Assembly (NCBI GenBank): GCA_934446565.1
Contig: CAKSEO010000012.1
Location: forward strand, 1-60,258
Length of the DNA: 60,258 nt
Origin: an uncultured Oscillospiraceae bacterium
Lineage (GTDB): Bacteria > Bacillota > Clostridia > Oscillospirales > Ruminococcaceae
Direction: 5' to 3'
Under the pieces are notes generated by a model, which had not been told where the DNA came from, did not search any database, and saw nothing but the letters and a program-made list of their open reading frames with translations. Both the position numbers and the translations under genes were made by a program. Shown here one piece after another: positions 37,790 through 46,026 of the stretch (position 1 is its first letter; every line of letters begins with the position of its first letter).

Positions 37790-38464
37790 TCACTTGACGA
37801 GCAGTTTTTCCAGTGGCTTGCGCACCAGACGATTCCAGAACTTTACAACGAATCCGGTCAGCACCGCCGCGATTATCGTACCCTCGCGGGTGCCCATAAC
37901 GTGGAATTCGAAGAATATCAGCGACAGCACGACCGCGATAATAACGCATGAGATATCGAACACGACCTTGACCGTGCCGAATTCCTTATGTATCGTATCG
38001 GAAATCGCCTTGACGAACGCCTCTCCGGAGTTCATCACAACATTCGCGATGACCGAAAGCGAGATGCCGAATGCCAGTACGACAGTACCGATAAGTACCA
38101 GCACAAGCTGTATCAGATAATTGTCCGGCTTGAGGAACGAGAAGATCCACATTCCGAAATCGGTGAACCATCCGAACAGAAACGACAGCGGAAGTTGAAT
38201 GAGCTGTATCCACTGGAAGCGTTTCCGCAGAATTACTATCTGCCCGATAATAAGCACGCAGTTCCAGATTATCAGCCAGTTTCCGAGCGACAGCGCCGTA
38301 AATTTAAGGCTCATCACGTTAGCTACCGAGGATATCGGCGACACTCCAAGCTCCCCCTTTTTGGTGATCGCAACGCCAAGCGCCGAAATAAACAGGCTGA
38401 TGATAAATAACGCGTAGCGTTTCACAAGCTCTTTTACGGGTATCAGGGGTTTTCTGTCTTCCAT
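37790..38464 (-). CDS. YczE/YyaS/YitT-like membrane protein
   Basis: A 224-residue five- or six-helix membrane protein. Family features: SALGVAITKKGELGVSPISSV after the first helix, GNWLIIWNCVLIIGQ, FGISLSVIANVVMNSGEAFVKAIS. Its role is unknown; some members are implied in membrane transport or biosynthesis regulation. It is monocistronic, with a promoter at 38564-38592, and convergent with the GT2 gene. Confidence 0.85.
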   Translation of the reverse strand: MEDRKPLIPVKELVKRYALFIISLFISALGVAITKKGELGVSPISSVANVMSLKFTALSLGNWLIIWNCVLIIGQIVILRKRFQWIQLIQLPLSFLFGWFTDFGMWIFSFLKPDNYLIQLVLVLIGTVVLAFGISLSVIANVVMNSGEAFVKAISDTIHKEFGTVKVVFDISCVIIAVVLSLIFFEFHVMGTREGTIIAAVLTGFVVKFWNRLVRKPLEKLLVK

Positions 38465-38647: not shown

Positions 38648-39373
38648 TTAAAGCACTCTTGCCAGGAAGTCGCGCAGGCGCAGATTCTTCGGGTCGGTGA
38701 ATATCTCATCGGGAGTTCCCTGCTCCTGTATCTTGCCATCTGCCATGAACAGCACGCGGCTTGCTACCTCTCTTGCGAATCCCATCTCGTGAGTTACGAC
38801 GATCATGGTCATGCCGCCGTCTGCGAGCTTCTTCATCAGCTCGAGCACCTCGCCGACCATCTCCGGGTCAAGCGCGGACGTAGGCTCATCGAACAGGATA
38901 ACGTCAGGATTCATCGCCAGAGTACGCGCGATGGCGATACGCTGCTTCTGACCGCCGGAGAGCTGCGCGGGATACGCTTCAGCCTTGTCGGACAGCCCTA
39001 CCATTGCGAGCAGCTCGTCTGCGCGCTTGTCGGCCTGAGCCTGGGTCATTATTTTGTTCTTGACCGGAGCTATCGTGATGTTCCGGCGGATAGTCAGGTG
39101 AGGGAAAAGGTTGAAGTGCTGGAACACCATTCCCATCTTCATGCGGACTGCGTTCAGCTCCTTGCCTTTGGCATGTGTTATGTCCTTGCCCTCGAACTCG
39201 ATGGTGCCGCTGGTGGGCTGTTCAAGCAGGTTCAGGCAGCGCAGGAACGTACTTTTACCGGAGCCGGACGGTCCGATAACTACCACCTTTTCTCCCTTTT
39301 CTATTGTTTCGGTGATACCGTCAAGAACGACCAGGTCGCCGAAGCTCTTTTTAAGATTACTTACGCTTATCAT
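38648..39373 (-). CDS. glnQ: Polar amino acid ABC transporter, ATP-binding protein
   Basis: A 241-residue ATPase of the GlnQ/HisP class. Seen: Walker [11 protein letters not shown]-loop region [12 protein letters not shown], signature [16 protein letters not shown], Walker [15 protein letters not shown] and the switch His in VVTHEMGFA. Its start overlaps the end of the permease fusion gene by 17 bp, so a complete importer is encoded by these two genes alone. Probable substrates are glutamine, glutamate or other polar amino acids. Confidence 0.95.
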
Positions 39374-41537
39374 TCGACAGTCTCCTTTCCAGACGGTTTA
39401 CAAGTGCGGACAGACCCACTACCATCAGCAGGTAGATGAGTGCCACAGCGATCAGCGGCAGGAATGCCTCGTAGGTCTGCGAACGGATAGTATCGCCGCC
39501 CTTGGTGAGGTCGTTCAGCGCGATATAGCCGGAAACGGAAGTCTCCTTGAGGAGCACTATCGCCTCGTTGCCGAGCGCGGGGAGGATATTCCTTACAGCC
39601 TGCGGAAGGATTATTGTCACCATCGTCCTGGTGTAGCCGAAGCCCAGCGATGAGCCAGCCTCGAACTGACCGCGGTCAACGGACATGATACCGGAACGCA
39701 CGATCTCGGCAACGTAAGCTGCGGAGTTCAGACCGAACGCGATGACTGCAACAAGTATCTTACTGATGTTAACGGAGCTGAACACAACGAAGTAGATGAT
39801 CAGCAGCTGAACTACCATAGGCGTACCACGGACGACAGTCAGGTAGATGCGGCAGATGAAATTCGGGATCTTGAGTCTGCCGGTGAGCTGGTTCGTGGAG
39901 CGAATCATCGCGATGATGAATCCAAGCACGATACCGATAACTACAGCCAGAACGGTGATAAGCAGCGTATTGCCAAGGCCCTGTACCAGGTATACCCAGC
40001 GGTCCTTGTCGAGGAACGTGCTCTTGAGCTTATCCAGGAAGTTCTCGGAAACTGCGTTGCCGCTCTTGTAGATTATAACCTGGCTCGCCTCGGTGTAGCT
40101 GTCGGAGAAGTTGACGTTCTTCAGACGATCCTCTGTTACGGTCATGCCCGCAACGCCGATATCAGCCTTGCCGGAGTCCACCGCAGCGATAACGGAATCG
40201 AACGCCATATCGTCAATGACGAGCTCCTTGCCGAGGATATCGCAGACGGCTCTCATCATGTCTACGTCGAAGCCGACTATCTCGCCCTCCTCCTTGAGCT
40301 CGTAGGGCGGGAATTCCGCGTTGGTAGCCATTACAAGCTTGCCGTCGTAGGTGACGCCCTCAGGGCTTTCATAGGGATGCTTGCCGTACTCATCGTCAAC
40401 GAGCCAGTTCTGCTCGATCGTGGCAAGCGTTCCATTTTCGCGGAGCTGTGCAAGCGCGTCGTTTACCTGCTGGGTCAGCTCGTCGTTGCCCTTCTTTATC
40501 GCGCAGGCGTACTTTTCAACTGCAAACGGCTTGGGCGAAATAGAAAGCTCCGGATTCTTACTTACAAAGTATTTTGCAGGTGAAGCGTCGATAAGTACGA
40601 CGTCTACCTTACCCTGCTTGAGCGCCTCGATAGCGTCAGCGCCCTTGTTGTACTTCTCAACTGTCGCACCCGCTACGCTCTCGGCGTAGGTCATACCGGT
40701 GGTGCCCATCTGAACGCCGATAGTTTTTCCGGTCAGGTCGGTGGACACGCCCTTTACGATTATGACCTGGCTCGCCTGAGTGTAGCTGTCAGTGAAGTTG
40801 ACATTCTTCAGGCGATCCTCTGTTACGGTCATGCCTGCAACGCCAACATCAGCCTTGCCGGAATCCACCGCAGCGATAACGGAATCGAACGCCATGTCGT
40901 CGATGACAAGTTCCTTGCCGAGAATATCGCACACGGCTCTCATCATATCCACGTCAAAGCCGACGATCTCGCCCTCCTCCTTGAACTCATACGGAGCAAA
41001 CTCGGCGTTGGTAGCCATTACGAGCTTGCCGTCGTATGTAACGTCCGCAGGGCTTTCATAGGGGTGCTTGCCGTACTCGTCGTCAACCAGCCAGTTCTGC
41101 TCGATGAGGGTCAGCGTACCGTCCTCGCGGAGCTGAGTCAGCGCTTCGTTTATCTGCTGGGTCAGAGCGTCGTTGCCCTTCTTGACCGCGACAGCGTATT
41201 CCTCGACTGCGAACGGGTCGTCAAGGGTAACGATGTCGGAATTCTTGCTGACGAAGTACTTCGCCGGGGAAGCGTCGATAAGCACTGCGTCGATCTTTCC
41301 CTGCTTGAGCGCCTCGACAGCGTCCGCGCCCTTGTTGTACTTCTCAACAGTGGCGCCCTCGATACCCTCGGCATATGTCATGCCGGTAGTGCCGATCTGG
41401 ACGCCTATCTTCTTACCGACAAGGTCGTCCGCACAGGTGACGGTGTTCTCCTGCGTGGTGGTCTGCTCCGCCGCGCAGCCGGTGAACATGCACAGCGTGA
41501 GCAGCAGCGCAGACACCGCCGCTAAAAATTTCTTCAT
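39357..41537 (-). CDS. Amino acid ABC transporter: permuted tandem binding domains fused to permease
   Basis: A 726-residue lipoprotein-permease fusion of the GlnPQ kind. Order: lipobox FTGC (Cys 21); unit A (39-260); unit B (268-489); permease (about 500-726, with [10 protein letters not shown] and the EAA loop [21 protein letters not shown]). Each unit begins with what is normally the second lobe ([17 protein letters not shown]...[13 protein letters not shown]), runs through the usual C-terminal helix ([14 protein letters not shown]), and only then has the first lobe ([12 protein letters not shown]...[10 protein letters not shown]). Canonical type II binding proteins have the reverse order. 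The units are about 85-90% identical over 222 residues with a 229-residue offset. The cargo is probably a polar amino acid. Confidence 0.9.
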
Positions 41538-41572
41538 GGTGAGTAACTCTCCTTTTTTTAAAACTATCTATC

Positions 41573-41601
41573 ATTATACAACATTGCCAGCCCAATTGCA
41601 A
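41573..41601 (-). promoter_or_regulatory. Promoter of the amino acid ABC transporter
   Basis: TTGCAA (41601-41596), 17-bp spacer, TATAAT (41578-41573). Just upstream (41600-41624) is an imperfect AT-rich inverted repeat, AAGTATTTTT/AAAAATACCTT, that may terminate the araC-type gene. Confidence 0.75.
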
Positions 41602-41637
41602 GTATTTTTTTGAAAAATACCTTATAAGAATATAAAC

Positions 41638-42585
41638 TCACTTGCTGCGGTACTGCTTGGGAGTCATTCCCGTGTGGGAACGGAACAGCTTGCAGAAATA
41701 CGCGCTGCTGCTGAATCCGCACTCCAGCGCGACTGCCTCCACCGTCATGTTACCGTCCCGAAGAAGCTGCATCGACCTTTCCACGCGGTATTTCAGCAGA
41801 TAGCTCACCGGAGAGGTGTGCAGGTAACTCTGGAAGCACCTCGACGCCTCGCTGCGGCTTATGCTGGCGGCATTCGCGATATCCTGGAGGGACACATCCT
41901 CCGCGTAGTGCTCCTGAATGAACCCGATCATCTTCTGCATGCGTATCTGGAGAACGTGCTCGTTTTTGACCGCCGGAGCAAGCTCCATCTCCCCGCGGTG
42001 GGTGAAAAGCAGCTCCCATGCGCGGCTTATCTCGCGCAATACGCGTATCTCAAAGCATTCACGCTCCCCCGGGGGATTGCGGAAATCCAGCTCCGGCACC
42101 TCGCCGTACCTGCCGACCTCTCCGTACTCCTGGAGCATCGAGAACACTCTGTCAAGGCACTCAAGTATCTCGCACTTCCACTCCGCAGCGCCGTCCAGAA
42201 TAACGTACGGCAGCTGTGAATTCAGCGTTATCGGCATAACGTAATGCGTGTTGATAACGCTGTTGACCGGCGCAATGAACTCCGGCTGGAACACCACGTT
42301 CGGACAGTAGCAGGGCGAACCTCCGACGCTCTCGTAGCTGTGCAGGCAGTTCGTGTTGAGGAATATCCCCTGTCCCGCCTCAAGCGTGATGTCAACGTTC
42401 CCCGCCTGGATATGTACCGTTCCGCTGTGCACTACGAAGAACTCAAGGTTCGGGTGCCAGTGCAGCGGGACGCTGTTCCCCGCGATATGCAGGGAGTTGA
42501 CGTAGTATTGTATGGGAAATTCAGCCTTTCCGTGCTGGACAAGCTCCTGAAAATTTTCCTTTAACGGCATGTGGAATTCTTCCAT
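41638..42585 (-). CDS. AraC family transcriptional regulator with cupin sensor domain
   Basis: A 315-residue regulator. The N-terminal cupin domain (about 30-110) carries VPLHWHPNLEFFVVHSG and ends with NTNCLHSYE. The C-terminal pair of HTH motifs (about 215-312) includes YAEDVSLQDIANAASISRSEASRCFQ and ALECGFSSSAYFCKLFRSHTGMTPKQYR, the classic AraC signature. Ligands are usually sugars. It is divergent from two solute-binding lipoproteins, its likely targets. Start after TTGGAGGTGGGCGG. Its own promoter has direct repeats 21 bp apart. Confidence 0.92.
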   Translation of the reverse strand: MEEFHMPLKENFQELVQHGKAEFPIQYYVNSLHIAGNSVPLHWHPNLEFFVVHSGTVHIQAGNVDITLEAGQGIFLNTNCLHSYESVGGSPCYCPNVVFQPEFIAPVNSVINTHYVMPITLNSQLPYVILDGAAEWKCEILECLDRVFSMLQEYGEVGRYGEVPELDFRNPPGERECFEIRVLREISRAWELLFTHRGEMELAPAVKNEHVLQIRMQKMIGFIQEHYAEDVSLQDIANAASISRSEASRCFQSYLHTSPVSYLLKYRVERSMQLLRDGNMTVEAVALECGFSSSAYFCKLFRSHTGMTPKQYRSK

Positions 42586-42803: not shown

Positions 42804-42815
42804 GCATTGCAATGC
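42804..42815. promoter_or_regulatory. Palindrome upstream of the solute-binding protein genes
   Basis: GCATTGCAATGC is a 12-bp perfect palindrome 57 bp before the start of the first lipoprotein. It shares half-sites with the 15-bp palindrome before the GH3 gene. I see no convincing -35/-10 pair for this gene in the 286-bp gap 42586-42871. Confidence 0.45.
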
Positions 42816-42871
42816 AATTTTGTTCCTCGAATGTGCAACTATTTTCCACATCAAGAAAAGGGAGAAAAACA

Positions 42872-44386
42872 ATGCCTGCTTTCAAGAAAACCATCGCCTG
42901 CACGATGACGGCGGCAATGATACTCGGCCTCACGGCGTGCGACGACGAAGCTCCGAACTCCGGAGTTTCCAACGCAGCGCCGGACGCGCCCGCCGCAACC
43001 ACATCCACCCAGGCGTCCACCACGACAGACCCCAACGCAGGTCTTGACATGACCGACAAGGAGAACAAGGAGCTTGACACTTCCATGGCTCCCCCCAGCG
43101 GCAACGCAGGAACGCTCAAGTACCTCGGATTCTACGATATCACCTCCGACCAGAAAGGCACCGAGCAGTGTCTGATATTCCAGTCGGATGTATACGGCGG
43201 CACGATAGATTACACCAGCGTTCCTTTCGGCGCGGCGTTCTACGATAAACTCGCGAACCTCATCGCCAGCGATGATTCCCCGGATATCGTCACCAAGGAC
43301 GCGATGCTCCGCCCGGGCAATGTTTCCAAGAATCTGTTCGAACCGCTCGACGGAAAGATCGACCTCACCACCCCGCTGTGGCAGGACATCGCGGGCGTTG
43401 TCGAGGATTTCAGCTGGAAGAACAAGCATTACTACTACCCGCACCGCACCACGACACTCTACGCGCTGAACTACAGCAAGCAGACCATCGCTGAAAACGA
43501 CCTGACAGACCCCTACGACCTGTACAGAGCCGGCGAATGGACCTGGGACGCATGGCGCGACATGATGATCGCGTTCTGCGACAAGGACGACGCTCACGTT
43601 GGTTTCTACACCACCAACCATACCATAACGAGCTTCATCGCCACCACCGGCACAACGCTCATCGACGTACAGCCGGACGGCACCATTACAAACAACATAC
43701 TCTCCGCGGATGTTTCCCGCGCTATGACTTTCCTTGAGGGGCTCTGCCGCGACGGTCTGACCTACGACAAGTCATACGGCGACTGGGTTTCCCCGCAGGT
43801 ATTCTCCACCGCGTGCAACAACATCCTGTTCACCTGCACCGAACCGGAGTGGACCTACATAGCAGAGACCGAAAATCTTCAGAACAAGCCCGGCGTTGAC
43901 GATGATATCTTCGACACCGTGTCCGAATTCTCGTTCGTACCGTTCCCGAGGGATCCTGTTGCCGACAAGTACTACACCGAGTACGACACGTTCGGATACC
44001 TCGTCCCCAAGGGCGCAAAGAACATCGACGGCGCGATAGAGTTCATCAACCTCAACAGAATGTACGACATCGACCCCGCTATCCAGGCAAAGGTACGCGA
44101 GGATCACATCAATCCCGAGAAGATATACTTCGAAAAGGGCAAGTATGCAGGCTCCGAGAAGTGGCAGATGAAGTGGGGCGAGCGTGAGTACGACCTGTGG
44201 CGCGAGATGTGCGACCCCTCAAACTTCACGTTCATCAACGAGGACGCCGAGGGCTTCTCCACCGATTTCACAGACCAGATCGGCGAACTTCTGATGGGCG
44301 TTGTCGAGCGTGGCGAGTCCTGGGCTAAGACCAGCGCCGAGTTCTCACCCGTTGCAGACGGCACTATCCAACCGTTCCTCAGCTGA
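42872..44386 (+). CDS. ABC transporter solute-binding lipoprotein, paralogue 1
   Basis: A 504-residue lipoprotein (lipobox LTACDDE, Cys 20), then an alanine/threonine linker and a family 1-type extracellular solute-binding domain. Seen: LANLIASDDSPDIV, GEWTWDAWRDMMIAF, DTVSEFSFVPFPRDP, DTFGYLVPKGAKNIDGAIEFINL, all typical of sugar-oligosaccharide binding proteins. Start at 42872 after AAAGGGAGAAAAACA. The closely similar gene at 44500 follows after 113 bp. No permease or ATPase gene is adjacent, so the membrane part must be elsewhere. Control by the divergent AraC regulator is likely. Confidence 0.85.
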   Translation: MPAFKKTIACTMTAAMILGLTACDDEAPNSGVSNAAPDAPAATTSTQASTTTDPNAGLDMTDKENKELDTSMAPPSGNAGTLKYLGFYDITSDQKGTEQCLIFQSDVYGGTIDYTSVPFGAAFYDKLANLIASDDSPDIVTKDAMLRPGNVSKNLFEPLDGKIDLTTPLWQDIAGVVEDFSWKNKHYYYPHRTTTLYALNYSKQTIAENDLTDPYDLYRAGEWTWDAWRDMMIAFCDKDDAHVGFYTTNHTITSFIATTGTTLIDVQPDGTITNNILSADVSRAMTFLEGLCRDGLTYDKSYGDWVSPQVFSTACNNILFTCTEPEWTYIAETENLQNKPGVDDDIFDTVSEFSFVPFPRDPVADKYYTEYDTFGYLVPKGAKNIDGAIEFINLNRMYDIDPAIQAKVREDHINPEKIYFEKGKYAGSEKWQMKWGEREYDLWREMCDPSNFTFINEDAEGFSTDFTDQIGELLMGVVERGESWAKTSAEFSPVADGTIQPFLS

Positions 44387-44499: not shown

Positions 44500-46026
44500 A
44501 TGAATACAGCAAAAAGACTCCTCGCATGCGGAATGGCAGCGGCAATGGTTGCCGGTCTGACCGCCTGCGACGACGAAACCCCCGCTAACAGCGGCGCAAG
44601 CAACAATAACTCCGTTGCTGCCCCCGCAGCAGTCACCACAACGACTTCTGCTTCCACAACTACAGACCCTAACGACGCACTCGACCTGACCGACAAGGAT
44701 ACCAAGGAGTTCGACACTTCCCTGTATCAGCCCTCCGGCAATGCAGGCACCCTGAAGTACCTCGGTTATTACGATATCACCGCTGACCAGAAGGGTACAG
44801 AGCAGTGCCTGATCTTCCAGTCCGACCTTTTCGGCGGCAAGATCGAATACACCAGCACTCCCTCCGGCGACGCTTTCTTTGAAAAGCTCTCCAACCTTAT
44901 CGCGGCTGACGACTCCCCTGATATCGTTGAGAAGTCCGCAATGCTCTACCCGGGCAACGTTTCCAAGAACCTGTTCGAACCGCTGGACGGCAAGATCGAC
45001 ATTGATTCCGCTATGTGGAGCGAAATGAAGGATGTTGCTGAATCCTACGCATGGAACGGCAAGCACTACTACTATCCGCACCGCATCACCACTTCCTTCG
45101 CACTCAACTACAGCAAGAAGACCATTGAGGAGAATGACCTCCCTGATCCGTATGAGCTGTACAGAAACGGCGAGTGGACCTGGGACGCTTGGCGTGACAT
45201 GATGATCCAGTTCTGCGACAAGGACGATGACAACATCGGTTTCTACGCTACCGATACTACTGTTGACGCGTTTATCCTCACAACTGGTACATCTCTTGTT
45301 GATACACAGCCCTCCGGCGTTATCACAAACAACCTTTCCAACCCGAACGTAACAAGAGCAATGCAGTTTATCGAGACACTCTGCCGTGACGGCGTATCCT
45401 ACGGCAAGCAGCTCGGCGACTGGGTACCTCCGCAGACATTCGCTACTGAATGCGACCGCCTGCTGTTCCTGTGCATGGAGCCCGAGTGGACCTACATCGC
45501 AGCTACCGAGCAGCTCCAGAACCCCAAGGGCGTTGATAACGATATCTTCGACACCGTTTCTGAGTTCGCATTCGTTCCGTTCCCGAGAGATTCCCAGGCA
45601 GACGCTTACTATCAGGGCTACGACACTTTCGGCTACCTCGTTCCTAAGGGTGCTAAGAACGTTGACGGCGCTATCGAGTTCATCAACCTGAACAGAGCTT
45701 ACGACGTTGACCCGGCTATCCAGGCACAGGTAAAGAAGGATCACTGCCAGCCTGAGAAGATCTACTTCGAAAAGGGCAGCAACATAGGCAAGGAGAAGTG
45801 GCAGATCACATGGGGCGAGCAGGAATACGATCTCTGGAGAGAGATGTGTGATCCCGCAAACTTCAGCTTTGTTACCGAGGACGCTTACGGCTTCAACTCT
45901 GACTTCCAGAGCCAGCTCGCTACCGTTGTTATGGACGTTGTAGAGAACGGCGCTTCCTGGACTCAGACATCTACCGAGTTCTCTCCGATAGTTGACGCGA
46001 TCGTTGCAGAGTACTCCCTCGCATAA
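44500..46026 (+). CDS. ABC transporter solute-binding lipoprotein, paralogue 2
   Basis: A 508-residue lipoprotein (lipobox LTACDDE, Cys 24) with the same architecture as the upstream gene and long stretches of identity (SGNAGTLKYLG, DQKGTEQCLIFQSD, GNVSKNLFEPLDGKID, GEWTWDAWRDMM). By eye the pair is well over half identical. Differences cluster in the middle (DTTVDAFILTTGTSLVDTQ), which may alter ligand choice. Codons are more biased to GCT/GTT than in paralogue 1, suggesting higher expression. AAGGAGGAACCACAAA ribosome binding site; terminator at 46049. Confidence 0.85.
   Translation: MNTAKRLLACGMAAAMVAGLTACDDETPANSGASNNNSVAAPAAVTTTTSASTTTDPNDALDLTDKDTKEFDTSLYQPSGNAGTLKYLGYYDITADQKGTEQCLIFQSDLFGGKIEYTSTPSGDAFFEKLSNLIAADDSPDIVEKSAMLYPGNVSKNLFEPLDGKIDIDSAMWSEMKDVAESYAWNGKHYYYPHRITTSFALNYSKKTIEENDLPDPYELYRNGEWTWDAWRDMMIQFCDKDDDNIGFYATDTTVDAFILTTGTSLVDTQPSGVITNNLSNPNVTRAMQFIETLCRDGVSYGKQLGDWVPPQTFATECDRLLFLCMEPEWTYIAATEQLQNPKGVDNDIFDTVSEFAFVPFPRDSQADAYYQGYDTFGYLVPKGAKNVDGAIEFINLNRAYDVDPAIQAQVKKDHCQPEKIYFEKGSNIGKEKWQITWGEQEYDLWREMCDPANFSFVTEDAYGFNSDFQSQLATVVMDVVENGASWTQTSTEFSPIVDAIVAEYSLA

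Follow-up and report, generated by a model that had tools for sequence, protein, structure and literature searches.

Probable circularly permuted type II substrate-binding domains in tandem on an amino-acid ABC permease of the Ruminococcaceae

The 726-amino-acid protein described here very probably belongs to a type I amino-acid ABC importer as its membrane subunit, with two circularly permuted type II substrate-binding domains (SBDs) one after the other on each chain. Its gene (39357-41537, minus strand, ATG start) lies in a window of 60,258 nucleotides, the whole stretch of DNA that was analysed (contig CAKSEO010000012.1, positions 1 to 60,258, from an uncultured Oscillospiraceae bacterium). 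We confirmed that its parts follow one another as lipobox, lobe 2, lobe 1, lobe 2, lobe 1 and permease, using one HMM per lobe, seeded with this protein and its canonical relative P0024 and refined on the matches. Unit 1 consists of lobe 2 with its C-terminal helices (residues 37-149; 41091..41429; 165 bits) and lobe 1 (residues 171-263; 40749..41027; 155 bits), and unit 2 again of lobe 2 with C-terminal helices (residues 266-378; 40404..40742; 166 bits) and lobe 1 (residues 400-492; 40062..40340; 154 bits), after which a short linker leads to a type I polar amino-acid ABC permease domain (residues ~515-722; 39372..39995) recognised by PF00528 and TIGR01726, all on the minus strand. These positions agree within a few residues with the lobe coordinates given in an earlier note on the same DNA. 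The permease domain scored 65.3 bits against TIGR01726 (cut-off 42.2) and is 42% identical to 4yms_C over 194 residues (model alignment), and PF00497 (SBP_bac_3) matched the protein with 247 bits.

A signal peptide with lipobox, read from the sequence, covers residues 1-21 (41475..41537, minus strand) and ends in FTGC21, in which C21 is the presumed lipidation site and is invariant in 13 out of 13 aligned two-unit sequences, the query counted. The ribosome-binding-like AGGAGAG (41547..41553, minus strand), read directly, stands 9 nt upstream of the ATG. The neighbouring ABC ATPase gene (38648..39373, minus strand), identified as an ORF matching PF00005, overlaps the end of the permease-fusion gene with its start by 17 nt, while upstream an AraC-type regulator gene (41638-42585, minus strand) ends 100 bases from the start codon (41538-41637). 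Elsewhere in the window, a gene for a DUF6198 membrane protein (37790-38464, minus strand) lies downstream of the ATPase gene on the same strand, and two adjacent genes of the plus strand (42812-44386 and 44500-46026) encode similar lipoproteins of 524 and 508 aa matching SBP_bac_1 and SBP_bac_8. The tRNA and Rfam search of the window gave zero matches at the gathering threshold.

The two units are identical at 561 of 690 aligned bases of DNA and differ chiefly in lobe 2, with 100 identical residues among the 131 aligned positions of lobes 2a and 2b (76%) and 90 among the 96 of lobes 1a and 1b (94%). Both contain a set of motifs (20 protein letters, not shown) and VLID. The residues that we take to form the type II pocket are E, F, Y, G, T and R in lobe 1 and T and D in lobe 2; of the 35 two-unit proteins, a set that counts P0179, 31 have the pocket letters, EFYGTR in lobe 1 and TTD in lobe 2, in each of their units. 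Because the pocket positions are conserved in both units, both should bind ligand; the putative ligand is probably a polar or basic amino acid. Lys/Arg/Orn was the only substrate-binding model to score above its own cut-off among the 25 matches listed, with a score that sums several stretches.

The lobe-2-first order is a real and common arrangement, found with and without a permease, in relatives that carry from one to three permuted units. Two protein searches yielded 1624 and 7582 matches, and the best 120 of each, 240 listed proteins, were classified with the query by lobe HMM. These 241 comprised 61 proteins with lobe 2-1 alone, 59 with lobe 2-1-permease (mostly near-copies of the window gene), 32 with two units and a permease, 18 with three units and a permease, 11 canonical tandems with a permease, 58 three-lobe orders and two others. 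Most of the one-unit fusions in this set have ~496 aa and are ~90% identical to the query over ~60% of it; since such proteins may be collapsed repeats of the window gene, the claim for one-unit fusions rests on loci from GTDB. The earlier note had proposed a search for homologues with the same order, and they abound: among the best 80 GTDB loci for the permuted query, a sample hence enriched by design, the lobe-2-first order is present in 65 (one of them, L025, with a partial lobe 2) and the canonical order in 15. The 80 loci include 34 in which a standalone lobe 2-lobe 1 gene lies beside a permease gene, 27 one-unit, 2 two-unit and 2 three-unit fusions. Among cultured strains, Ruminococcus bromii YE282 has the permuted order in a standalone protein, and Roseburia porci and Ruminobacter amylophilus DSM 1361 have it in fusions. 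A collinear permuted match was found in at least 19 of the 150 genomes sampled from the R. bromii family, at least 9 of 56 of the Ruminobacter family and at least 22 of 120 of the Roseburia family (21 loci and R. porci classified). In Dorea phocaeensis, Muricomes intestini and Hungatella hathewayi the permuted query splits in two swapped pieces, and the genes are canonical. In the 12 standalone proteins that were aligned, the chain stops no more than ~7 residues from the hinge strand.

Some members of the family are strongly altered. One GTDB locus (L145:765-3812) encodes a permuted SBD-permease protein of 1016 aa, read as three units, whose lobes are very diverged (13-58 bits for the five found). 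In Roseburia porci a one-unit permuted fusion gene (L082:1486-3051) is decayed, its lobe 1 being interrupted by an in-frame stop and its end disrupted; the genome also has an intact fusion of this kind at another place (L087).

An error of sequencing or assembly at the 5' end, with loss of an upstream lobe 1, had been named in the earlier note as the case that would undo its reading. Chimera-like metagenome proteins do occur in this family and near-identical repeats may cause units to be miscounted, yet an artefact has next to no probability as the source of the lobe order: the start codon, the ribosome-binding-like site and the signal peptide are all in place, the gap to the AraC-type gene measures 100 bases, and the same order recurs in other assemblies, in the cultured R. 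bromii, Roseburia porci and Ruminobacter as well as in the 65 GTDB loci. Proteins with three lobes (lobe 2-1-2 in 47 of the 241, lobe 1-2-1 in 11), for instance P0145, P0155, P0156, P0127 and P0147, are probable metagenome assembly chimeras, with real recombinants possible. We considered them as evolutionary intermediates and rejected the idea, several of them sharing one N half with different C halves (e.g., P0145 and P0155); three-lobe orders are absent from the best 80 GTDB loci. They were left out of the trees, except for the first canonical unit of P0127 and P0147. Another candidate that was set aside, P0002 (942 aa), repeats a permease piece and looks misassembled.

As to which lobes pair, the earlier note had offered two readings, and the one in which each unit is a true circular permutant, its lobes pairing within the unit, is favoured by single-unit relatives, two structure models, linker lengths and a decay that proceeds by units. 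Single-unit relatives, both standalone proteins and one-unit fusions, have one lobe 2 and one lobe 1 each and, without any other lobe available for pairing, support the true permutant. The structure model of one standalone protein, P0215 (pLDDT 88, pTM 0.82), fits TmArgBP 123-247 with its residues 24-148 (VIA-align; 38% identity, 2.5 Å) and the isolated domain 1 of TmArgBP with its residues 120-254 (VIA-align; 43% identity, 2.4 Å). Its whole-chain fits, such as that to AncCDT-1 (168 residues, 3.3 Å, 15% identity), follow chain order and in the model can only lay lobe 2 on lobe 1 of the target, a superposition that works because the lobes are pseudo-symmetric. P0215 is thus predicted to combine PBP-like packing with permuted connectivity. 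For the 726-aa protein, the earlier note had looked to a structure prediction of the full chain. The AlphaFold2 model obtained (pLDDT 75; 13 sequences in its alignment) gives two-lobe fits within each unit, a result weakened by a pTM of 0.40 and by five rows spanning both units. Pairing was read in it from fold alignments, by the first and last residues of each row only: of 50 listed rows, 13 fall within residues 22-265 (3.2-5.2 Å) and eight within 269-496 (3.1-3.7 Å), and since these align 158-213 residues, both lobes of a unit are involved. A further 21 rows lie on the permease and one on a single lobe.

The other reading of the earlier note, in which a canonical domain made of residues 168-380 sits inside a split domain made of the first lobe 2 and the last lobe 1, appears improbable. 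The best-scoring match of canonical full-length chains (TmArgBP and AncQR) is indeed this middle stretch, collinear with canonical proteins, but any 2-1-2-1 order inevitably predicts such a match. The five rows that span both units (5tpi, 2ql3, 7erq, 9nlm and 8sbh) extend from unit 1 as far as residue 495-496 (3.6-4.9 Å); known by their end residues only, they stay unassigned and might conceivably combine lobe 2a and lobe 1b of the model. Against this, the only two rows of the 50 in canonical order over residues 167-340 (TmArgBP, 43% identity) stand at 15-16 Å rmsd, and Foldseek rows in canonical order at ~15-28 Å. The gap between lobe 1 and the following lobe 2 is two residues in the 726-aa protein vs seven in 46 of 49 canonical cases; overall it ranges from 2 to 25 over 76 inter-unit permuted cases and from 7 to 9 in the 49 canonical ones, in counts that include near-identical rows and from which the 58 three-lobe rows were dropped. 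For one-unit relatives the nested scheme is impossible. Decay, moreover, tends to follow units: in 19 of 20 three-unit proteins, which are largely one lineage with likely duplicates (P0097/L036 and P0120/L038), unit 1 has lost some of its lobe-1 pocket residues and has a lobe-2 score below that of unit 2. Most of the lobe-2 pocket letters (T and D) survive in the decayed first units, where lobe 2 shows its decay in a lower profile score only. All three units of P0003 are intact, P0116 has an intact unit 2 between decayed units 1 and 3, and P0117 has a truncated first lobe 2.

Pairing between the two chains of the importer, lobe 2 of one with lobe 1 of the other, seems very improbable. The importer is presumably a dimer, single-chain prediction is blind to such a swap, and TmArgBP reportedly forms domain-swapped dimers. 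Nevertheless, P0215 is predicted as one compact two-lobe chain at the pTM given above, and the gap from lobe 2 to lobe 1 in permuted proteins is near constant (20-22 residues in 302 of 313; 14-21 in 19 cases of canonical tandems; rows counted as for the other gap), which would be expected if the linker closes one molecule. Pairing within units remains the favoured reading.

In the trees we call class A the lobe-2-first proteins, cut at the hinge crossover, and class B those cut inside lobe 2. Within the close family only, the free tree has two changes of arrangement, and a single group of all permuted proteins was not rejected, with a fit 14.75 log units better (AU p 0.69, seven rows left out). 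A single origin of the permuted order, which fits the close family, was rejected once distant lobe-2-first proteins were added. Three such proteins (L092:1489-2343 of the cultured Roseburia porci, L143:805-1641 and L146:749-1597) are nested among canonical relatives: a canonical Treponema protein, L049_3630, is the partner of L143 and L146 (support 100/97), and L092 falls with the canonical L091 and with L025 (100/99 for the trio, 100/88 for L092 with L025). Their placement by sequence points to independent rearrangements. The main tree held 83 rows, thinned and with very long rows left out, namely 38 of class A (two of them the same gene), 21 of class B and 24 canonical. It shows seven arrangement changes, of which supported branches force at least five for class A; the trees being unrooted, gains and returns look alike in these counts, and long branches and distant alignment weaken their exact values. 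One class A clade as opposed to canonical proteins was rejected (log-likelihood 220.9 lower, AU p 1.8e-49), and the order therefore changed more than once. A quick tree of 162 rows agrees, with seven changes for class A and at least four forced, and a permease-only tree gave four changes with weak support.

Class B proteins, which were uncovered through matches covering the end of the query only, run from the C-terminal part of lobe 2 through lobe 1 to the N-terminal part of lobe 2, with the cut downstream of the helix that comes next after the pocket aspartate. The loci contain 28 such ORFs (L141, L142, L147-L171 and L204), corresponding to 26 distinct genes (L141/L168 are the same gene, as are L142/L147). 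They occur in 25 of 150 genomes of the R. bromii family and make up 109 of the 120 best listed proteins for an L204 query. Class B forms two groups on the tree, yet a single origin was not rejected (p 0.199), and the L204 group is placed together with L123/L176, a class A gene (99/98). L204 has the layout lobe 2c-1-2n. P0179, with lobe 2c-1-2-1, is arranged as a tandem class A protein would be after losing part of its N end, which suggests that duplication plus trimming leads to permutation, with the proviso that P0179 is one metagenome protein and could be a chimera. On balance we consider it rather likely that type II permutation is recurrent, mostly in gut Clostridia among the proteins examined here, with at least two cut points and several changes, and with tandem duplication plus trimming of the ends as the probable route. 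If so, termini at the hinge would give importers another membrane tether and let units repeat on one permease.

In each unit of the importer the chain passes from lobe 2 through the C-terminal helices and a linker of ~20 residues to lobe 1, the old N and C termini being joined and the new ones lying at the first hinge crossover, and the lobes of one unit are predicted to pair and fold as an ordinary two-lobe binding protein. The two units may have arisen by in-register duplication of a one-unit ancestor. Two chains would form the pore, giving four binding domains per importer. In canonical fusions the permease follows the C-terminal helix; here the lipid anchor, on lobe 2, and the permease tether, on lobe 1, would both lie near the hinge. 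The amino acid would be caught in the cleft and delivered as in GlnPQ.

Binding proteins of the type II fold feature in textbooks and serve as a starting point for engineering biosensors, and these families indicate that evolution itself kept permuted ones, cultured bacteria such as R. bromii included. Since canonical, class A and class B versions coexist, how connectivity affects folding, the motion of the hinge and docking on the transporter can be tested directly. The 726-aa protein, a standalone protein of class A and one of class B all match PF00497, and the domain label alone therefore hides the rearrangement. The closest solved sequences to each lobe, TmArgBP (6svf and 4prs) and AncQR (4zv1), belong to type II proteins of canonical order. 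Among the best 60 of 82 PDB matches of P0215, the top-scoring stretch is confined to one half of the protein in 59; with the remaining one, the tandem 6h30, it crosses from lobe 2 of SBD1 into lobe 1 of SBD2.

In a literature search by titles and the openings of abstracts that took in little subscription literature and no preprints, Tp0684 (MglB-2) of Treponema pallidum was the only natural permuted ABC binding protein found, with none of type II. Its report describes a naturally circularly permuted ABC-type binding lipoprotein of type I that binds ligand, glucose, and proposes the subclass Type Ic, or Cluster Bc (PMC4990184). Tp0684 is a type I sugar protein with permuted strands of the N-lobe, whereas both lobes of the window protein resemble, in sequence and in fold, the type II binding proteins for amino acids, which places it outside Type Ic; the predicted models of P0215 and of the 726-aa protein (P0001) have two lobes around a cleft, as in type II. 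With GlnPQ-type importers, exemplified by Lactococcus lactis GlnPQ (PDB 6h30), which is reported to have two linked SBDs, the window protein shares tandem SBP_bac_3 domains N-terminal to a polar amino-acid permease and a separate ATPase, encoded by the neighbouring gene. It departs from them in running 2-1-2-1 instead of the canonical 1-2-1-2, so that it is from the hinge end of lobe 1 that the chain leads on to the permease, and would represent a variant of the GlnP-type importer with a new lobe order.
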